From Phaeobacter porticola (lineage in GTDB: Bacteria; Pseudomonadota; Alphaproteobacteria; Rhodobacterales; Rhodobacteraceae), in contig NZ_CP016366.1 of assembly GCF_001888185.1 (NCBI RefSeq), positions 1-64,000 on the forward strand: 64,000 nt of DNA, read 5' to 3'. Made by a program: the position numbers and the translations under genes. Below are positions 2,339 through 57,233 of the stretch, in pieces. The notes under the pieces were generated by a model that worked only from the letters and a program-made list of their open reading frames with translations, was not told the DNA's origin and did not search any database. How positions within the stretch are numbered: the stretch's first letter is position 1; the number at the start of each line of letters is the position of its first letter.

Positions 2339-3493
2339 ATGAAACATGCTTCCCAAGTCACGTTTGGGATGGCGGAGCCATGTGCCCTGCCCTCCGTGGA
2401 CAAATGGGACATCCTCTCAGCGTTGACCAAGGCAGCGCCCGAATTTGGTGTGTCTCATCGAACGCTCAGCGTTCTAAAAGCCCTGATGACATTTCTGCCA
2501 GAGCAAATGATTTCGGCAGAACGCGGTGGGACTGTGGTCTTTCCATCGAACCGCAAACTCAGTGAGCGGTTGAACGGAATGCCCGAAAGCACATTGCGGC
2601 GTCATCTTGCCAAGCTGGTCGAGACCGGAATTGTCAGCCGTCATGACAGCCCCAACCGCAAACGTTTTGCCCGCAACATCGGCTCGAACCGTGCGGTGGC
2701 CTATGGGTTTGACCTCTCCCCGCTCGCTGTCCACACCGCTCAGGTGCAGGCGATCGCAGCAGAGGCTGCCCTGAAGGCCGAGCGTATTGCCGTGCTACGG
2801 GATCGGCTCGCCCTGTTACGGCAAGAAATCCTGACATCAGATCTGCAGCTGCCCCCCCTGCCCCGGGAAACATTAGAACGCGCCCGCCTGACCCTACGCC
2901 GCCGCGCCGATGAGGCAGATCTGATCGCGCTGATCGACGCATTGACTGATATCGTCGCCACCCTGCCTGCCCCCCAGACACAAAACACGCAATTGGAAAC
3001 ATGCGCCGCGTCAGCGGAAATGAGCGGCAGCGACAACCATAATGAACGGCACATACAGTATTTAAATAAATCTATTTCTGACTCTGAAGGATCGCCACAA
3101 CCTGCAACGAAAGAGGCGGAGGACACATCAACGCAAAGCATAGAAGAGCCACTGCAAGATGTTCTGTCGTCCTGTCATGAATACAAGCAGTTCTTTCCCG
3201 ATGGCATCCGATCCTGGCATGATCTCACACGCACAGCCTGCCAGTTGGTGCCGATGATGGGGATTGAACAACCCGTCTTTCACGAAGCAGAGCGCATCAT
3301 GGGCACACAGAAAGCCTCTACGCTGGTGCTGTGTATGCTTGAGCGACTTGGCGAGATCCGCAGCCCGGGTGCCTATCTCCGTCGTCTATCGCAACAGGCA
3401 CGAGTGGGGCAGTTTTCGATCAGGACGATCATCGCATCAATCAGACAACGGCAGAAATTGTCAGCTGACAATTTTGACGCTGTTCCGGCCTGA
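2339..3493 (+). CDS. repC: RepC, plasmid replication initiator
   Basis: A 384-residue RepC, the replication initiator of repABC plasmids, whose origin normally lies within its own gene. The N-terminal winged-helix region is recognisable (LPSVDKWDILSALTKAA, then FPSNRKLSERLNGMPESTLRRHLAKL). The C-terminal domain follows a variable linker. ATG 2339 was chosen because it lies just downstream of the antisense-RNA region. The open frame extends upstream to 2078, overlapping repB, but that part has no RepC character. No strong ribosome site is visible, consistent with translation controlled by leader structure. A parS-like palindrome overlaps the last codons. Confidence 0.93.
   Translation: MKHASQVTFGMAEPCALPSVDKWDILSALTKAAPEFGVSHRTLSVLKALMTFLPEQMISAERGGTVVFPSNRKLSERLNGMPESTLRRHLAKLVETGIVSRHDSPNRKRFARNIGSNRAVAYGFDLSPLAVHTAQVQAIAAEAALKAERIAVLRDRLALLRQEILTSDLQLPPLPRETLERARLTLRRRADEADLIALIDALTDIVATLPAPQTQNTQLETCAASAEMSGSDNHNERHIQYLNKSISDSEGSPQPATKEAEDTSTQSIEEPLQDVLSSCHEYKQFFPDGIRSWHDLTRTACQLVPMMGIEQPVFHEAERIMGTQKASTLVLCMLERLGEIRSPGAYLRRLSQQARVGQFSIRTIIASIRQRQKLSADNFDAVPA
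3455..3474. promoter_or_regulatory. parS-like palindrome 1, inside the 3' end of repC
   Basis: A perfect 20-bp palindrome with core ATTGTCAGCTGACAAT. It follows the symmetry of known repABC parS sites (conserved GC-GC centre, outer A/T). The same core recurs at 5265-5288 and, with one central mismatch, at 3601-3620. Confidence 0.8.
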
Positions 3494-5264: not shown

Positions 5265-5288
5265 GAAAATTGTCAGCTGACAATTTTC
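5265..5288. promoter_or_regulatory. parS-like palindrome 3
   Basis: The longest copy: a perfect 24-bp palindrome with the same ATTGTCAGCTGACAAT core, extended to GAAA...TTTC. It lies between the tetR gene and ccdB, 1.8 kb from copy 1. Confidence 0.8.
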
Positions 5289-6379: not shown

Positions 6380-6460
6380 GGGCAGACAGCCCCGCCGCAT
6401 TCTTGAATGCGGGCGCGAATCCCAATTGTGTTGTCCCGGACAACACAATTGGTTGAAGGA
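6380..6460. other. Candidate origin of transfer upstream of mobC
   Basis: Immediately before mobC lies an almost perfect inverted repeat at 6422-6452. Two 15-bp arms, CCAATTGTGTTGTCC and its complement, are separated by one base. A shorter hairpin (GGGGCAGACAGCCCC, about 6380-6394) lies to its left. An inverted repeat directly upstream of a MobC-type gene is the usual architecture of an oriT. No nic site could be identified from sequence alone. Confidence 0.45.
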
Positions 6461-50840: not shown

Positions 50841-51065
50841 TCAGTTCGATATGAAACCGCGCCTTTTTTGCGAGTATTTGTTGAAGCGGACTTTGGCGCA
50901 ACCGCAGCGAAAGTTCATTTTGTCCCGCCTCTGCCGACCTTGACCTAGATCGCGGTGATGCGAGAATTGCGGGAGGGTCGCGGCAAGGGCAAGGTGGGCG
51001 CGGTAGGCTTCGCGGGCAGACTGGGCCTTTTGCAGCCGGTCTGCTTCGTCCAGTTGGAATTTCAC
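50841..51065 (-). CDS. Short open frame of doubtful status
   Basis: 74 codons (MKFQLDEADRLQKAQSAREAYRAHLALAATLPQF...), convergent with the MFS gene. The first 40 residues look helical and coding, the rest does not. The frame is open upstream without a start, suggesting a remnant. Nothing else is seen in 50838-51147. Confidence 0.3.
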   Translation of the reverse strand: MKFQLDEADRLQKAQSAREAYRAHLALAATLPQFSHHRDLGQGRQRRDKMNFRCGCAKVRFNKYSQKRRGFISN

Positions 51066-51147
51066 GCCGATCAGGCGGCTACTGCAACCAGAGCGGTCAC
51101 GGTTGCCGCACCCGCTTCAACCGAAGGTGCATGGCGTGACAGCCACC

Positions 51148-52218
51148 TCATACTGCGGGCATTTGTTGTGTGGCACAGTGGATACCGCCACCCATCTCGC
51201 CCAACGGGTCTACGTTCAAGGTGATGATGTCATGGCTTGGGTAATGTTTGGCCAAGGCGTCTTTGGCGATTTGATCAGTCTCGGGGTCCCCGAATTGGGC
51301 CGCGACCACACCACCGTTGCAAACGTAGTAGTTGGCGTAGGAGGCAACAAAATCGATGCTCTCGATGCGACGGCGGACAGGCTCGGGGATGACGTCAACT
51401 TCAAGTCCTTCCGCGACAAGGAGATCATGTGTATCAGCCGCTGCCGCGTGAAACGGATCGGACATATCGAGTTCGTCGGGAAGATTGATCAGCACACGAC
51501 CCGGCCCCGTAAATCGCGCAAGACTGTCGATGTGATAGTCCGTGATATCTTCGCCCCATACGCCCTCAGACCAAATCATCCGCTCAGCACCATAGGCCCG
51601 CAAAAGGCGGGCTTCGACCTCATCGCGCGAAAGCCCCGGATTGCGATTGTCGTTCACCCAAGAGCTTTCGTGGGCAAGCAACAAGCCGCGACCATCTTGC
51701 TCGACGCCGCCTGCTTCACCGCGTAAGCTTGTGGAAAGAAAATCTAATCCAAGGCGATTTGCGACTTGTTCAGCGATCTGACTATCGCGCACATTGACCT
51801 GTTTTTCACCCCAGCCGTTAAACTGGATATGTCTCACGGCGATGCCACCTTTACCATCTACCACAAAGATTGGCCCAGCATCGCGACACCACAGATCTTC
51901 GGTTGGAACATCCCAAAGTTCAACGCGTTCCGATAGCTTCCGGCGTGCGCCCGCGTGATCGGCGTTTGCCGCCAGCATTGTGACCGGCTCAAATTCCGAG
52001 ATGACATTGGCGATATTCGCAATCGTTTGTTGCGCCATGTCCAGAAAGAGCCCATCGGGATGGACACGCCGATTAACGGGCCACTGCATAAAGGTGCGCT
52101 GGTGCTGTGCTTCTTCGGGCGGGACATAGAAACCATCACCGGACTGCGCAAAAGAGGGCCCTGCTAAAGTCATCGCGCCCAGGGCTCCCATCCCGCCAAT
52201 TACATCACGTCTAAACAT
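51148..52218 (-). CDS. Tat-exported agmatine deiminase/peptidyl-arginine-deiminase-family protein
   Basis: 356 residues. The N-terminus MFRRDVIGGMGALGAMTLAGPSFAQ is a twin-arginine-type signal (RRD), so the enzyme probably works in the periplasm. The family core is intact: FMQWPVNRR, DLWCRDAGPIFVV, NGWGEK, the His of YHIDSLARF and the catalytic Cys in GGGIHCATQQMP. The family hydrolyses guanidino groups (agmatine to N-carbamoylputrescine). ATG 52218 has TAGGA upstream. Export is unusual for agmatine deiminases. Confidence 0.88.
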   Translation of the reverse strand: MFRRDVIGGMGALGAMTLAGPSFAQSGDGFYVPPEEAQHQRTFMQWPVNRRVHPDGLFLDMAQQTIANIANVISEFEPVTMLAANADHAGARRKLSERVELWDVPTEDLWCRDAGPIFVVDGKGGIAVRHIQFNGWGEKQVNVRDSQIAEQVANRLGLDFLSTSLRGEAGGVEQDGRGLLLAHESSWVNDNRNPGLSRDEVEARLLRAYGAERMIWSEGVWGEDITDYHIDSLARFTGPGRVLINLPDELDMSDPFHAAAADTHDLLVAEGLEVDVIPEPVRRRIESIDFVASYANYYVCNGGVVAAQFGDPETDQIAKDALAKHYPSHDIITLNVDPLGEMGGGIHCATQQMPAV

Positions 52219-52243
52219 TGTCCTACGCCTTATTGTCTGGGTC

Positions 52244-52400
52244 TCAGTTTGCTGCGGTTTTGTCGAATAGGCCTTCAAGATGCGCAATGAACTCTGTGCA
52301 GAACGTAATCGAGACATCTTCTGGATCATAAAACGCATTCGCGTCACCGCAGGATTCAACTTTGACTATATCAACACAGAGGTGATCGGTTCCAGCATTA
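52244..52400 (-). pseudogene. C-terminal fragment of a DUF4344-like protein
   Basis: The frame reads VESCGDANAFYDPEDVSITFCTEFIAHL, close to the conserved CG-x-NAFY-P...CxE end of DUF4344 putative metallopeptidases. The upstream part is replaced at about 52400 by an unrelated plus-strand fragment. Confidence 0.55.
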
Positions 52401-52416
52401 CGCAAGTGATGGCACG

Positions 52417-52785
52417 GTGATTGGCACTGAAGGCACGCTGGATCTCGGTACTCAGACAACAAATATGTTTGGCGCCGAAGGAGGGAAGGTGATCCTTCTT
52501 GAGGGCGGAGGGATTGCCGTAGCCTGGTGGACACTTGTTGATGGCGAGAGCAATTTGGCAGTGCAGAGCTTTGCGCTGGATGGCAGTGCCCTTACGGATG
52601 CCACTTTGATTTTGGCCGAGGGGTCATCGACCTTCGATCTTGACCAATATCCCAATGGTTCCATCGTGCTCACATGGGATGAGAATGGCAGTATCTACGA
52701 ACAATCTATTGACGCGCCACCACCGCCGATGACGGCGATCATCATCTGGACCTGTCGCGATTTGATGCCGGCCCGGGCGCTCGTT
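52417..52785 (+). pseudogene. Internal fragment of a large secreted (type I substrate) repeat protein
   Basis: About 105 residues of a repeat domain (GGGIAVAWWTLVDGE, QSFALDGSALTD, YPNGSIVLTWDENGS). These resemble the beta-sheet repeats in very large RTX-type adhesins. A frameshift follows at the Pro-rich end: the other frame reads ADDGDHHLDLSRFDAGPG. Both ends are cut. Confidence 0.5.
52745..52774 (+). repeat. Left copy of a 30-bp inverted repeat flanking the IS3 remnant
   Basis: Begins TCTGGACCTGTCGCG and ends GATGCCGGCCC. 29 of 30 bases match the complement of 54064-54093. Confidence 0.8.
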
Positions 52786-52958
52786 TAAGCCACCTTTTGT
52801 TCGAATGCGACCGGGCTTCCAGCCCAGTGCTGAGTGTCGGCGTCGCGGATTTTAGAAGCCGTTGATGTATTCAAAGATCGCCATCTCGGCTTGCCTGCGG
52901 GTTTCCCATGATCTTCGCCAGATCAATTCTGCCTTGATGGTTTTGAAGAACGTCTCGA

Positions 52959-53004
52959 CCACTGCTCGGCAGGCGATTTGCAGTGCAAATCTGCCGAGAG
53001 GGGC
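52959..53004 (-). repeat. Mini hairpin insertion 1
   Basis: 46 bp between CYDNA and VETFFK of orfB. Outer stem CTCGGCAG/CTGCCGAG, inner stem ATTTGCA/TGCAAAT. Confidence 0.75.
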
Positions 53005-53154
53005 CGCATTATCGTAGCAGTTTCCTGTCCCGCTCATCGATACCTTGAACCCGTTTTGGCGCAGGATCTTCTGATCGTCGTGAGAACAGTATTGCGATCC
53101 ACGATCCGTGTGGTGAATGCAGCCTTTTGGCGGTGACCGGCATGCGATGGCCAT

Positions 53155-53196
53155 CCACCGCCCGGCAGTGGTTTGCCTGCAAACCATGAGAGGGAT
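53155..53196 (-). repeat. Mini hairpin insertion 2
   Basis: 42 bp between RAL and MAIACRSPPKG of orfB. It has the same GAGAGGG and CCGCCCGGCAG ends as insertion 1 but a different inner stem, GGTTTGC/GCAAACC. Confidence 0.7.
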
Positions 53197-53383
53197 CAGC
53201 GCCCGGATCGCCAGATCCCGTTTCATTCGATTGCTCACCGCCCAGCCGATGACCCGCCTGGAATGCAGGTCCAGAATCACTGCGAGATACAGCCAGCCTT
53301 CACGGGGCCAGATATAGCTGATGTCACCTTGTGTTTGCGCGTTCTGACAACAGATATGCCGTTCTGGCGCATTAGGCGGCCCA

Positions 53384-53427
53384 CCACTGCCCGGCAGGCG
53401 AATGCAAAGCATTCTGCCGAGAGGGGC
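53384..53427 (-). repeat. Mini hairpin insertion 3
   Basis: 44 bp between DIGHR and GRLMRQNG of orfB. Ends nearly identical to insertion 1; inner stem GAATGC/GCATTC around AAA. Confidence 0.75.
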
Positions 53428-53652
53428 GACGGTGCCCGATATCCAGACCAATCTCTTTCAGCTCCTCCGTCATCCGTGGCCTGCCATAGCTGCCCAAGCT
53501 GAGGCGCAACTGTTCCTTGATATGCGCCAGTGCCACCAGATCACTGCGCTGTCTGCAGCTGGCCGGACGGCTGCGGAAGGCCCGCAGACCGCGCGGACCA
53601 ACATCCATGACATCACACAGCCGGTGGGTGGGAAAGCTGTCGCGGTGTTCCT

Positions 53653-53695
53653 CCCCTTCCGGGACATTGCTACGCAATGCCCTGCCGGGCAGTGG
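53653..53695 (+). repeat. Mini hairpin insertion 4, opposite orientation
   Basis: 43 bp between FRFIH and EHRDSFP of orfB. Ends CCCCTTCC and CTGCCGGGCAGTGG, inner stem CATTGC/GCAATG around TAC. Inverted relative to insertions 1-3. Confidence 0.7.
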
Positions 53696-53744
53696 ATGAA
53701 CCTGAACCTCATGGCCTTTGGCCCGCGAAGAACTGCGTTGCCTT

Positions 53745-53788
53745 CATCGGGAAAACAGTCCCCCGGACTGTTTTCTGGTCCTCTTCAG
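53745..53788. repeat. Hairpin insertion 5 at the orfA/orfB junction
   Basis: About 44 bp between REIL and KATQFFAGQRP. It has an 11-bp perfect stem (GAAAACAGTCC and complement, loop CCC). Its flanking ends differ from insertions 1-4, so it may be another family. Confidence 0.6.
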
Positions 53789-54063
53789 TTTAAGATCTCC
53801 CTCTCCTCCTTGAGAATGCGGTTCTCACGTCGAAGCCGGTCATTCTCTTGGACCAGGCTCAAATCCTCGTGCGACACTACATCCGTGTCCCGGTGTGCCG
53901 TGATCCATTTGTTAAGCGTTGACAGGCCAACACCAGGATCATCAGCAACCTGCTTGCGGTTAAGCCCGCTGGTCAGCGCTATTCGCAACCGCATCAGCTC
54001 GGAATTCGTCCGTCCGGTTCGTGCCCATACCTCGTCTCCTTTGGTGCAGTAAATGCGATCAAA

Positions 54064-54093
54064 GGGCCGGCATCAAACCGCGACAGGTCCAGA
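54064..54093 (-). repeat. Right copy of the 30-bp inverted repeat
   Basis: Complement of 52745-52774 with one mismatch. It lies at the point where nnrS loses similarity. Confidence 0.8.
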
Positions 54094-54663
54094 CCTGCCT
54101 GGGACGCAATCGAAGCCAACCTGTAGTCCATAGCCCTGCGCCACGTAATCACCGACAAGCGCCTCGTAGTGAAACAGCACATTGGCCAGCGTAAAGACAG
54201 CAAGCAGGGCCAGCACGATCAGGGTGCGCCAATTCTTCCCTGCGACGATCTCGCGCAGGATCAGGCAGCCAAGCATGATGGGAAAGGCGAGGTCGATTGC
54301 GGGGGCCAGAAGCGGCGGAAACTGCTGGGAGAACAGGATAGTCGCGCGCCCGACGCACCAAACCGCAAAAAGCCCCACCAACCGCCAGCCGACGATGGGC
54401 AAACGCCCGGTCCAGTTGGGCACGGCTGTCAGCAAGAAACCGGCAAGAACCGCGCCAAGATAGCCGAACAGGAATTCATGCGCATGCCATGAGCCGCGGT
54501 CGAACCGGGACGGCAGGTCGATCCCGCCCATCAGAACCGCCATCCACAGGCCCATGGCCACGATGACCCAAATCGCCCCGAAAAGGAAGAACGGACGGAA
54601 GCCAAAGCTGAAGATCGCAGGCCCTTTCCAGCTACGCATCTGTTCTGCGGATGACTGCGGCAT
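54073..54663 (-). pseudogene. nnrS: NnrS family protein, 3'-truncated
   Basis: About 180 recognisable residues with five membrane helices: FSFGFRPFFLFGAIWVIVAM, RGSWHAHEFLFGYLGAVLAGFLLTAVPNWTGR and so on. NnrS proteins are heme- and copper-containing membrane proteins linked to nitric-oxide stress and denitrification; the full family length is about 400. Similarity stops near 54120, where the 30-bp repeat and IS3 remnant begin, so the second half is lost. Its start overlaps the DUF6522-like stop (TAATG). Confidence 0.88.
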
Positions 54664-54906
54664 TATGGTCGCGCCGATGTTACGCGGGACGTCGTCAGAC
54701 CCGTCCCGTCTTTGCCACATGTCAGGCGTACCCAGCGATAGCGGTGAAAAAACGTCAGCCTGACTATGTCAGCGTCTTCGCCTTCACCTGTTTCGAAACA
54801 TGAGGTGATTTCGCCCGCCCGCATCAGCAGCTGCACCTCTTCCAGGGGGCAGATCGAGCAACTTTCCAAGATCGAGGGCGTCAATTGCGAGCTGGTCGCT
54901 GCTCAT
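54663..54906 (-). pseudogene. DUF6522-like small protein, single-base frameshift
   Basis: The first frame (MSSDQLAIDALDLGKLLDLP) and second frame (LEEVQLLMRAGEITSCFETGEGED...RLTFFHRYRWVRLT) together make one about 80-residue DUF6522-type protein, a family often found in denitrification loci. One extra base in a run of five G/C near 54850 breaks the frame. It could equally be a sequencing error. Coupled to nnrS by TAATG. Confidence 0.65.
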
Positions 54907-54929
54907 GTCGATTTTCAATGCGCCGCTTC

Positions 54930-55154
54930 CTAGTCTGCCACATCCATCAGATGACGAATGTGTTTCGCAAAATACCATGTGGCAGGAATTCCAAGACCCG
55001 CGCCCAACAAGATTGATAGGTTGGTGGAGAGGATCGGGCCACCGATCCAGCTAAAGATCAGGGCTGCAAAGAACACGTTGACCGCAGCCGCAGCCGCCCC
55101 GAAAGGATAGAGCACCAAAGCGATCTTGCGCGTGGACCATCCCGCCCGTGTCAT
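54930..55154 (-). CDS. Small membrane protein of the nor operon
   Basis: 74 residues with two hydrophobic helices (LVLYPFGAAAAAVNVFFAALIF; TNLSILLGAGLGIPATWYF). ATG 55154 overlaps the upstream gene's stop by four bases, so it is co-translated with the nor genes. Similar small membrane proteins occur next to norD in rhodobacterial clusters. Role unknown. Confidence 0.75.
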   Translation of the reverse strand: MTRAGWSTRKIALVLYPFGAAAAAVNVFFAALIFSWIGGPILSTNLSILLGAGLGIPATWYFAKHIRHLMDVAD

Positions 55155-55333
55155 CTGCGCGCCACCAACCACTGTACGGCTACCATGCTCAGCACCAGCA
55201 TGATGCAGGCCAATGCGTACCAGAACTCGGCCGTTGCCGACTGTGCCTGAGGAATCGGTCGCTCGAAGCTTTGCGCAAAGAGGCGCGAGCTTGCGATGAC
55301 GAAGACCCCGGTGAGGGAAAGAAAGAAGCGCAT
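55151..55333 (-). CDS. Small membrane protein, possible NorF analogue
   Basis: 60 residues with two hydrophobic stretches (MRFFLSLTGVFVIASSRLF; FWYALACIMLVLSMVAVQWLV). It starts one base after the norD stop. Size and position resemble norF, a small gene needed for full NO-reductase activity in Paracoccus, but sequence alone does not prove it. No norE-like (subunit III-like) gene is present. Confidence 0.7.
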   Translation of the reverse strand: MRFFLSLTGVFVIASSRLFAQSFERPIPQAQSATAEFWYALACIMLVLSMVAVQWLVARR

Positions 55334-55334
55334 A

Positions 55335-57233
55335 TCAGGTCTCCTGTGTCAGTGTACGGTAGATGTCGGGCAGCGCGCGCAGCAGGCGTTCGGGGTTTGG
55401 CAAAAGAGCAAACCCTCCGCGCCCGAAAATGCGGGCGAACCAGTCCTGCCCATCCTCGTCGATCACCACGCCGTGCAGGCGTTGGCCTGCTGCGCGTGCC
55501 TCGCGCACCGCCATGTGGCTGTCTTCGATCCCGTGCTGGCCTTCGTAGTGGTCCAGATCGTTGGGTTTACCATCGGTCAGCACGATCAACAGCTTGCGTG
55601 CACTGGGTTCCTCTGCCAATTGCGCGCTGACATGGCGGATCGCGGCACCGAGGCGGGTATAATGACCGGGCTTGAGCGCGCCAATATTGGCGGTGATCAC
55701 GGGTGACATCGGGTCGTCAAAGCCCTTGCAGCGGGTCACGAACACCCTGTCACGGCGGAGCGATGAGAAACCCCAGATACCGCAGCGGTCGCCTGCCGCG
55801 TCGATCCCTACGGCCAATGCCGCCATCGTGTCGCGGGCCACGTCGATGACGCAGGTATCGCCGATCGCCGCTTCGGTTGATCGGGAGGTGTCAATCAGGA
55901 AGGCAACCGAAACGTCGCGATTCATCTGCTGCGCGGCTTGCCAGATCCGGTCAGAACCGCGCCCGGTGGCGACCATGTCGGCCCGCGCGGTCAGGGCCGC
56001 ATCAAGGTCCAGTTCTGCCCCGTCGATCTGGCGCGGTTGCAGCACGCGGCGCGGGCGCAGGGTTTCAAACTGGCGGCGGACTTCACGGACATATCGGTCA
56101 TTTGGTGTATAGGTTTCCCCATCGGTTACGGCTGGCGCATCAAGCACTCGGCAGTGACCTTCCATGTAGCTGCGCGACCGATGGTTCCATTCAAGGTAGG
56201 TGTGCTTGCCCGCCAGCGCCTCGTGATCGGCATCGGCTGGCGACAGGTCAAGATGCAGGCGCAGCCGGGTGGCGATCTTGCTGTTCTGTTTCGAAAGGGT
56301 GATCCGGTCCTGATCGTCGGCGGCCTTCTGGGCGTTCTGGTCATCATCGTCATCGATGCTGCGATTAATATTCATGGATTCGACCCATGACAGGATCGAT
56401 TCAAAGCGGTGGATGATGAAACTGTCTTTGCGGTTGTGCTGGTCCTGATCTTTGCGCTCTCCCAGCTTGCGGCTGCTTGGTGCAGCATGGGGCGCCGGTG
56501 CGGCTGGATCCGCCTCGTCATCGTTGGCAGCTTGCCGGCCCGAGCCGGGACGTTCAAAGCATAGCCAGATTGGGACAGGGGCGCATGGCATGTAATTGCG
56601 CGCGTCTGTATCAGTGGCATCAAGCGCGGATGAACTGCCCTTTAGCTGGTCGCGGACCGCCTGTTCCAGCGCGGCCTCTTGCGCGGGCCGACGCATAACG
56701 GGCCGCGCGTCTGCACAAAACGCGGCCATCGCGAGATAGCGGTCACGCAATCCGGGGCAGACCAAATAGGCCCTGTCTGCAGCCGCTGCATTCGCGCGAA
56801 TCTGTGCGCAGTCCAGTGCGTGGCCGGTGGTGTTCAAATCGAGCCCGTCAACATCGGTTAAGGCGGCAAGTGCCGTCAGCCAGAAAAAGGCCGCGCGGTT
56901 GAGAACCTCATCGGGAAAAGCCTCCATGACAGGTGGCAACGCGAGCCGTTCCCCATCGAAGCGCGCGACCCATTCCCGATCACGCTCGGCCCCGAGTTTG
57001 CGGCGCATGAGTTGACGGTGCTGCACAAGGCTTGGCGCAGCCTCGGCCAGCTCAACGCCAGGCGCACCGCCGAGCGCGCGGAAGAGAACAGCAAGGCTGG
57101 GGCGTACCGAGGCTAGCGCGACGCTTGCTTTGGGGTGCGTGACACCGGCGCCGATCCCGCTGGCCATGTCGTGCCAGAGTTTTCCAACCGTTTCTTCGGG
57201 ATCCATGAGGTCGCGCAGGTGCATGGCCGTCAT
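55335..57233 (-). CDS. norD: NorD, VWA-domain NO-reductase activation protein
   Basis: 632 residues. The C-terminal von Willebrand A domain (about residues 430-620) contains the metal-site motif DTSRS and later LTDGKPNDLDHYEG. An acidic, low-complexity linker (about 230-320) precedes it. NorD works with the NorQ ATPase to insert the non-heme iron of NO reductase. Start overlaps norQ by four bases. Confidence 0.95.
   Translation of the reverse strand: MTAMHLRDLMDPEETVGKLWHDMASGIGAGVTHPKASVALASVRPSLAVLFRALGGAPGVELAEAAPSLVQHRQLMRRKLGAERDREWVARFDGERLALPPVMEAFPDEVLNRAAFFWLTALAALTDVDGLDLNTTGHALDCAQIRANAAAADRAYLVCPGLRDRYLAMAAFCADARPVMRRPAQEAALEQAVRDQLKGSSSALDATDTDARNYMPCAPVPIWLCFERPGSGRQAANDDEADPAAPAPHAAPSSRKLGERKDQDQHNRKDSFIIHRFESILSWVESMNINRSIDDDDDQNAQKAADDQDRITLSKQNSKIATRLRLHLDLSPADADHEALAGKHTYLEWNHRSRSYMEGHCRVLDAPAVTDGETYTPNDRYVREVRRQFETLRPRRVLQPRQIDGAELDLDAALTARADMVATGRGSDRIWQAAQQMNRDVSVAFLIDTSRSTEAAIGDTCVIDVARDTMAALAVGIDAAGDRCGIWGFSSLRRDRVFVTRCKGFDDPMSPVITANIGALKPGHYTRLGAAIRHVSAQLAEEPSARKLLIVLTDGKPNDLDHYEGQHGIEDSHMAVREARAAGQRLHGVVIDEDGQDWFARIFGRGGFALLPNPERLLRALPDIYRTLTQET

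Follow-up and report, generated by a model that had tools for sequence, protein, structure and literature searches.

The window, a stretch of 64,000 nucleotides from the genome of Phaeobacter porticola (GCF_001888185.1; 4.2 Mb in 6 contigs), contains on its minus strand a copy of an IS3-family insertion sequence (IS) at 52745–54093. The copy is bounded by 30-bp terminal inverted repeats (52745–52774 and 54064–54093, 97% identity), has an integrase core domain (Pfam rve), and is 131 bp short of its full sister copies. The orfB (transposase) remnant (52852–53451, minus strand) is a 199-aa open reading frame (ORF) matching rve and rve_2 and open through hairpin elements 1–3 (see following). The orfA remnant (53785–53994, minus strand) has an extra base near its start that is present in all four sister copies. 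The right end of the IS lies inside an nnrS gene (54073–54720), for which the match covers only positions 2–168 of 371, and no second nnrS part was noticed among those ORFs left of the IS that were searched. The other copies of this genome are at C1:2617348, C1:2248230, and C1:2463366; two of them are full (L001 and L002) and the last is partial (L003).

The aligned full sister copies measure 1478 and 1481 bp, whereas the three intact relatives that serve as empty references, found on Phaeobacter, Pseudosulfitobacter, and Roseovarius plasmids, have 1230 bp. The surplus consists of six inserts (42, 39, 40, 41, 41, and 43 bp) and a base or two. Five of the six are present in the window copy. The sixth is missing because a 131-bp stretch between GTCACC repeats, which holds this hairpin in the full copies (L001:1513–1555), is gone from both the window copy and the partial one at C1:2463366; the alignment places the junction at 53323–53328 of the window. 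A preliminary description of this DNA had proposed five hairpin insertions of 42–46 bp that are foreign to IS3 elements. The insertions are where it placed them and none is present in the three empty relatives, but their lengths are 39–43 bp. A Leisingera IS3 copy (L021) carries two hairpins, one of them at a site also occupied in the P. porticola IS3, where the P. porticola hairpin is one base shorter. Since two of the empty relatives (82.0%, 80.9%, and 77.8% identity to the P. porticola IS3) are nearer to it than the Leisingera copy (79.1%), the common site is better read as two separate insertions, though loss is possible.

Five of the six inserts of the full copies form one family, type 1, with lengths of 39–42 bp. 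In the window these are element 1 (52959–53003, plus strand; 42-bp insert at about 52960–53001), element 2 (53155–53195, plus strand; 39-bp insert), element 3 (53384–53426, plus strand; 41-bp insert at about 53385–53425), and element 4 (53653–53695, minus strand; 41-bp insert at about 53654–53694). They score 56.1, 42.3, 67.1, and 63.4 bits, respectively, with R1, a covariance model of the type-1 hairpin built partly from the copies of this genome. The type-1 design combines CCACTG with a CCC/GGG foot and an internal loop (GGCA/GAGA), followed by an upper stem of roughly nine pairs with a short loop. The ends and the foot are constant, and the upper stem is variable yet paired. The fifth insert of the window (53746–53788; 43 bp) has an 11-bp perfect stem and a 3-base loop, and is inserted in a T-run, which lies between the two reading frames and reads A6G on the coding strand. 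It belongs to a second family, type 2, and had rightly been set apart from the four that share ends. Element 4 is inverted, as originally described; in the full copies, the same is true of two of the five type-1 elements. The claim of perfectly self-complementary stems holds in the window and fails in the sister copies, where element 3 has one mismatch.

The folding z-scores of single elements are individually modest (−3.9 to −1.5), so that it is the evidence from the family as a whole, model matches and covariation, that decides whether the structure exceeds chance. Among 14 copies, 8 of the 12 pairs are changed on both sides. In an alignment of the best 150 of 176 matches (80 loci, 122 distinct rows), this is the case for all 12 pairs, and none of 500 shuffles does as well; paired cells amount to 95.3%, compared with 76.4% for shuffles and no more than 52.2% for slid controls, in an alignment that was fitted to the structure and whose copies are related to each other. 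Hence the conservation of structure proposed from the window copies is borne out. Rfam gives no match above the gathering score in window positions 51000–56000, and in its one weak partial match there the type-2 hairpin scores 21.8 bits with RF02604, compared with the 137 required.

Type-2-like hairpins of several end classes occur in other fetched loci. They are also found on plasmids (31 records, of which Paracoccus accounts for 17). Further hairpin classes, topped by [A/G]TCC-NNN-GGA[C/T] and having three or more sets of ends, were seen in loci that also hold type-1 hairpins (among them L107, L121, L125, L151, L152, L162, and L164). There are also 36-nt variants with type-1 ends and a short stem (L045, L046, L060, L062, L071, and L073; two are in the P. 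porticola genome). Several lie beside a T-run or a T-rich stretch, and those may be terminators.

Copies of the type-1 hairpin exist well beyond this IS. In the P. porticola genome R1 gives 22 matches at E ≤ 1. Twenty of these have E ≤ 2e-5 (17 belong to the four IS3 copies, and the other 3 to copies matching an IS5 transposase by homology), and the two weak ones are the 36-nt variants. At E ≤ 0.1, 17 of 41 genomes have matches, all among the 25 that belong to the same family, Rhodobacteraceae, and at E ≤ 1e-4 matches are found in 73 of 198 genomes of this family, so that a lack of copies in related genomes, which would have counted against the preliminary description, is not what is observed. 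A class-wide draw of 289 genomes yields 5 with a match at E ≤ 1e-6. Two of these genomes belong to other families, and the match in one of the two is in a gene that resembles an IS91 transposase by eye. An exact scan of the genome collection for the end pattern finds at least 120 stretches. Among the matches listed, 79 of 80 titles name what we take to be Rhodobacterales, and one says Enemella. The latter record (L129, JAFKDC010000007.1, titled Enemella evansiae) is probably mislabelled or contaminated, and its hairpin flanks are those of a contig of a Rhodobacteraceae genome (G008). Viral contigs give no match to the end pattern. Among 72,556 plasmids a similar 43-mer is present in 99 records; among the 60 listed, the match coincides with an annotated gene in three (two transposases and one hypothetical protein), and two lack any annotation. 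A plasmid of Dinoroseobacter shibae DFL 12 is among the carriers. The type-1 family is widespread in one mostly marine bacterial group, mainly within other jumping elements, apparently as a parasite of parasites. No published description of it was found among the titles and abstracts of the open-licence literature or with exact sequence strings, and a word search of PMC13386836 gave no mention.

Transposase DNA, toward which the preliminary description pointed, is the main location. The host census covers 83 pattern copies in 80 loci, among the end-pattern matches listed. By Pfam or homology 76 of the 83 are in IS genes, and four more are assigned by eye (L143, L152, L153, and L166). Of the three elsewhere, L103 and L160 look intergenic and the host of L110 is unassigned. 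For the by-eye hosts, Pfam gives a weak HTH match for L143, only an unrelated weak match for L153, and none for L166; L152 was called outside the Pfam scan. Counted as distinct sites among the matches listed, 51 of 58 are in ISs by Pfam or homology, plus four by eye. The translated flanks of the matches listed form clusters of 29 (IS5-like) and 27 (with the IS3 reference) and further groups of 5, 2, and 2, whose representatives match DDE_Tnp_1, rve, rve/rve_3, DDE_Tnp_IS66, and DUF4096 in Pfam. The 11 singletons match DDE_3 (below cut-off), rve (two, one below cut-off), Transposase_mut, IstB, Mu-transpos_C_2, rve_3 (two), HTH_21 (below cut-off), Transposase_20, and TnpB_IS66. Pfam names thus indicate at least six host IS families (IS3-like, IS5, IS66, IS21, IS256 [Mutator], and IS110), and IS30, IS630, IS481, IS1182, and IS91 are added by eye. 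In a second, partly overlapping sample of 56 model-found loci, 41 are linked to the first hosts and four more are IS-like by eye (L086 with Pfam support); the other 11 are six 36-nt variants, the weak match L074, a toxin-like gene (L049), and three unassigned hosts. Hairpins are also clustered: 60 additional copies lie no more than 1.5 kb from one of the 83 seeds, versus 13 at a greater distance (in 364 of 566 kb).

Three single loci deserve mention. The L049 hairpin is in a gene resembling, by eye, the toxin of a bacterial toxin-antitoxin system. L053 and L110 have hairpins from different sources in host sequences that, judged by eye, seem to be of the same kind. At L004:1057–1099 the left flank of the hairpin corresponds to about residues 195–216 of an IS5 transposase and the right flank to about residues 37–135, a pattern that would result if two hairpins had recombined and the intervening stretch had been lost.

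The target was analysed at 58 distinct sites, from the 80 copies with enough flank among the matches listed. It is one-sided. On the forward strand it reads element / G A T/C G/A (on the other strand, N[A/G]TC / CACTG...). Counting the last G as shared, the position after the element is A in 44 of the 58 distinct sites, the next base is T or C in 52, and the third is G in 34. The opposite flank is nearly flat, and only its adjacent base deviates slightly, to C or G. The commonest 5′ flank tetramers at these 58 sites are CATC (24), TGTC (6), TATC (4), CGTC (4), and GATC (4). Comparison of occupied and empty IS3 copies indicates that the flanking bases originate from the target, and no target duplication was seen in the IS3 hosts compared with empty relatives. 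Insertion in both orientations, suspected from the window, is general. The hairpin is on the coding strand in 38 cases and on the template strand in 39 (77 callable of 139 copies). Of 77 lengths, 55 leave a remainder of 2 when divided by three, 18 leave 1, and 4 leave 0. Where copies could be mapped (53 of 169), insertions recur at homologous codons of diverged ISs, which may be explained by conserved GATG-like codons. The recurrent DSTGI site of IS5 was detected by pattern in 2 of 394 genomes, a number that does not suffice for tracing how stems evolve in place.

Among 169 distinct-site copies there is no clear link between the 5′ end of the hairpin and the target, and ATC is the commonest target for each of the 5′-end variants CACTG, CATTG, and CGTTG. 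Three position-pair tests reach p < 0.02, uncorrected. The strongest (p = 0.00045) contrasts A-ends with G-ends at the second element position, and several of the G-ends (CGCTG with TCC) resemble the short intergenic class.

These observations lead us to favour, with middling confidence, the view that the hairpins are a family of non-autonomous mobile DNAs of about 41 bp, nested in ISs and perhaps moved as single strands by an HUH enzyme. They insert next to the one-sided target in either orientation and mostly into ISs, and one IS can collect several. They usually shift the frame and thereby break the transposase gene; the transposase for a laden IS was probably supplied in trans. Laden copies have nonetheless multiplied, and the hairpins therefore travel with them. 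For example, the P. porticola genome has four copies of its laden IS3, and genome G019 has six IS3 copies with four hairpins each that are at least 99% alike. Nesting inside a multiplying element is at least one way to spread. The conserved foot (CCC/GGG with the internal loop GGCA/GAGA) would be the recognition site, and the upper stem would need only to pair. As in IS200/IS605 and REP/TnpA-REP, an HUH-type (Y1-like) enzyme, here encoded at some other locus, would cut and join the folded single strand.

The search for an enzyme that mobilises the hairpins gave no candidate. The Y1_Tnp domain is absent from the P. porticola genome, and of the 198 family genomes 18 have it; a hairpin lies within about 1.5 kb of only 1 of 30 Y1 loci, where it looks incidental. 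On these counts a Y1 transposase is not supported as a linked mobiliser. The mobiliser could possibly be an HUH protein of another kind, have been lost, or be plasmid-borne.

Elements of IS200/IS605, including non-autonomous derivatives, have hairpins, insert at a one-sided target, and make no duplication. Likewise, the type-1 hairpins insert beside a short one-sided target, which is a preference, and show no duplication in IS3 hosts. Unlike IS200/IS605, the family has no transposase gene and one hairpin only, and shows no clear guide–target link, the bases 5′ of the hairpin being those that set the target in IS200/IS605 according to PMC8266576. The family also differs from miniature inverted-repeat transposable elements (MITEs), in that no duplication is seen and a single short hairpin takes the place of two terminal repeats around a body. 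MITEs are non-autonomous elements that multiply in trans and have terminal repeats and target duplications.

A bolder form of mobility, which we consider unlikely though worth keeping in mind, is a dedicated system (hyperparasite or defence) that plants hairpins in intact ISs of many families faster than ordinary mutation breaks them. If so, the ISs of this bacterial family would be repeatedly disarmed and yet carry the hairpins along.

The location of the hairpins might instead reflect random insertion followed by survivorship, copies persisting only in dispensable DNA such as dead ISs. Broken transposase genes do tolerate inserts, and a few copies exist elsewhere (the two intergenic by eye and the one in the toxin-like gene). 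However, intergenic DNA is also largely dispensable, and only 2 of the 83 pattern copies listed are there. If ISs made up 29% of dispensable DNA, a share that is assumed, the presence of 55 of 58 distinct sites in ISs would have p ~3e-26; with the Pfam/homology cases only (51 of 58) this becomes ~1e-20, or ~1e-9 at an assumed share of 50%. The IS preference may in part reflect the copying of laden ISs, though it persists after reduction to distinct sites. The state of the hosts also speaks against survivorship. An automatic count, by alignment to the intact protein, gives 6 of 22 laden IS3/IS5 copies without any other lesion. Manual reading gives 14 of 27, some of them partly aligned and a few being sister copies; frameshifts with 13–14 inserted codons were there taken as hairpins missed automatically (missed hairpins show up as frameshifts with 11–14 inserted codons), and the doubtful L095 was left out of the 14. 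The hairpins are thus often the sole lesion found, and with about half of the examined laden ISs free of further lesions, many of these ISs were not long dead at the time of the hit. Survivorship is therefore an unlikely explanation of the distribution.

One would next think of REPs, which are described as palindromes of 20–50 nt in many copies, probably trans-mobilised as single-strand elements by TnpA-REP (PMC8266576), with a conserved tetranucleotide tag, mostly GTAG, and a mostly intergenic location (PMC8266576 and PMC3733652). That the hairpins are members or relatives of such GTAG/CGTC-tagged repeats mobilised by TnpA-REP (RAYT) would agree with their size, their single imperfect hairpin, their copy number, and their short preferred 5′ sequence, which is CGTC at 4 of the 58 sites. 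It is quite unlikely, given that the bases 5′ of the palindrome are variable (CATC, the commonest, at 24 of 58) and derived from the target instead of being a conserved tag, that the copies are mostly intragenic and mainly inside ISs (2 of 83 intergenic, among the matches listed), and that no Y1 gene was found in the P. porticola genome, as opposed to the tyrosine transposase gene that accompanies REPs. The family is nearest in kind to such small palindromic repeats, and differs from them in its ends, its target, and its residence mainly inside ISs.

The laden ISs could also be autonomous if the hairpins were removed or skipped at the level of RNA or the ribosome, like introns or bypassing elements. 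With the hairpins removed in silico, orfA and orfB of the G019 IS3 are open end to end, and those of the P. porticola IS3 are open except for one base in orfA; in the full P. porticola copies the raw frame, too, stays open for 363 codons although it crosses several hairpins. Moreover, laden ISs have multiplied, and no full hairpin-free copy of the laden IS3 was found in G019 or in the P. porticola genome. Yet the equal use of the two strands and the predominance of lengths of 2 modulo 3 speak against skipping, and the type-2 hairpin splits the A6G run of the P. porticola IS3, the presumed frameshift site. The six G019 copies differ by 12 nonsynonymous and 3 synonymous changes (neutral expectation, 0.74 nonsynonymous), and one has lost the orfA start codon. 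This ratio is as expected without selection, and would also fit a live IS whose copies are individually unselected. Overall, skipping appears improbable.

The same data bear on the resemblance, originally suggested, to Rickettsia palindromic elements and mitochondrial bypassing elements (byps). The former are palindromic inserts that keep the frame within genes of Alphaproteobacteria, and the latter are hairpins of about 40 nt inside genes. Because the frame is not kept (4 of 77 lengths divisible by three) and the strands are used equally (38:39), this likeness is unsupported. In addition, the hairpins are much shorter than Rickettsia palindromic elements, both comparisons are at odds with hosts that are mainly transposase genes, and there is no clear sign of the skipping typical of byps. 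A cellular or plasmid-borne anti-IS system inserting hairpins into intact ISs would agree with the at least six IS families hit by Pfam, the several hits per copy, and the frequent lack of another lesion, but is very improbable, as the Y1_Tnp search found no such machinery, non-IS sites are hit too, and killing one copy brings little benefit.

As mobile hairpins nested in ISs, the family would be among the smallest mobile DNAs and one that resides chiefly within other mobile elements, with a well-defined structure, target, and range of hosts. It may help to explain why some IS copies of this bacterial family are broken. The occupied and empty sites form a natural set for asking how IS copies are distinguished from the rest of the genome. 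Apart from the IS, the window contains perfect palindromes at 3455–3474, 5265–5288, and 6422–6452; the first two have TTGTCAGCTGACAA in common and may be operator sites.
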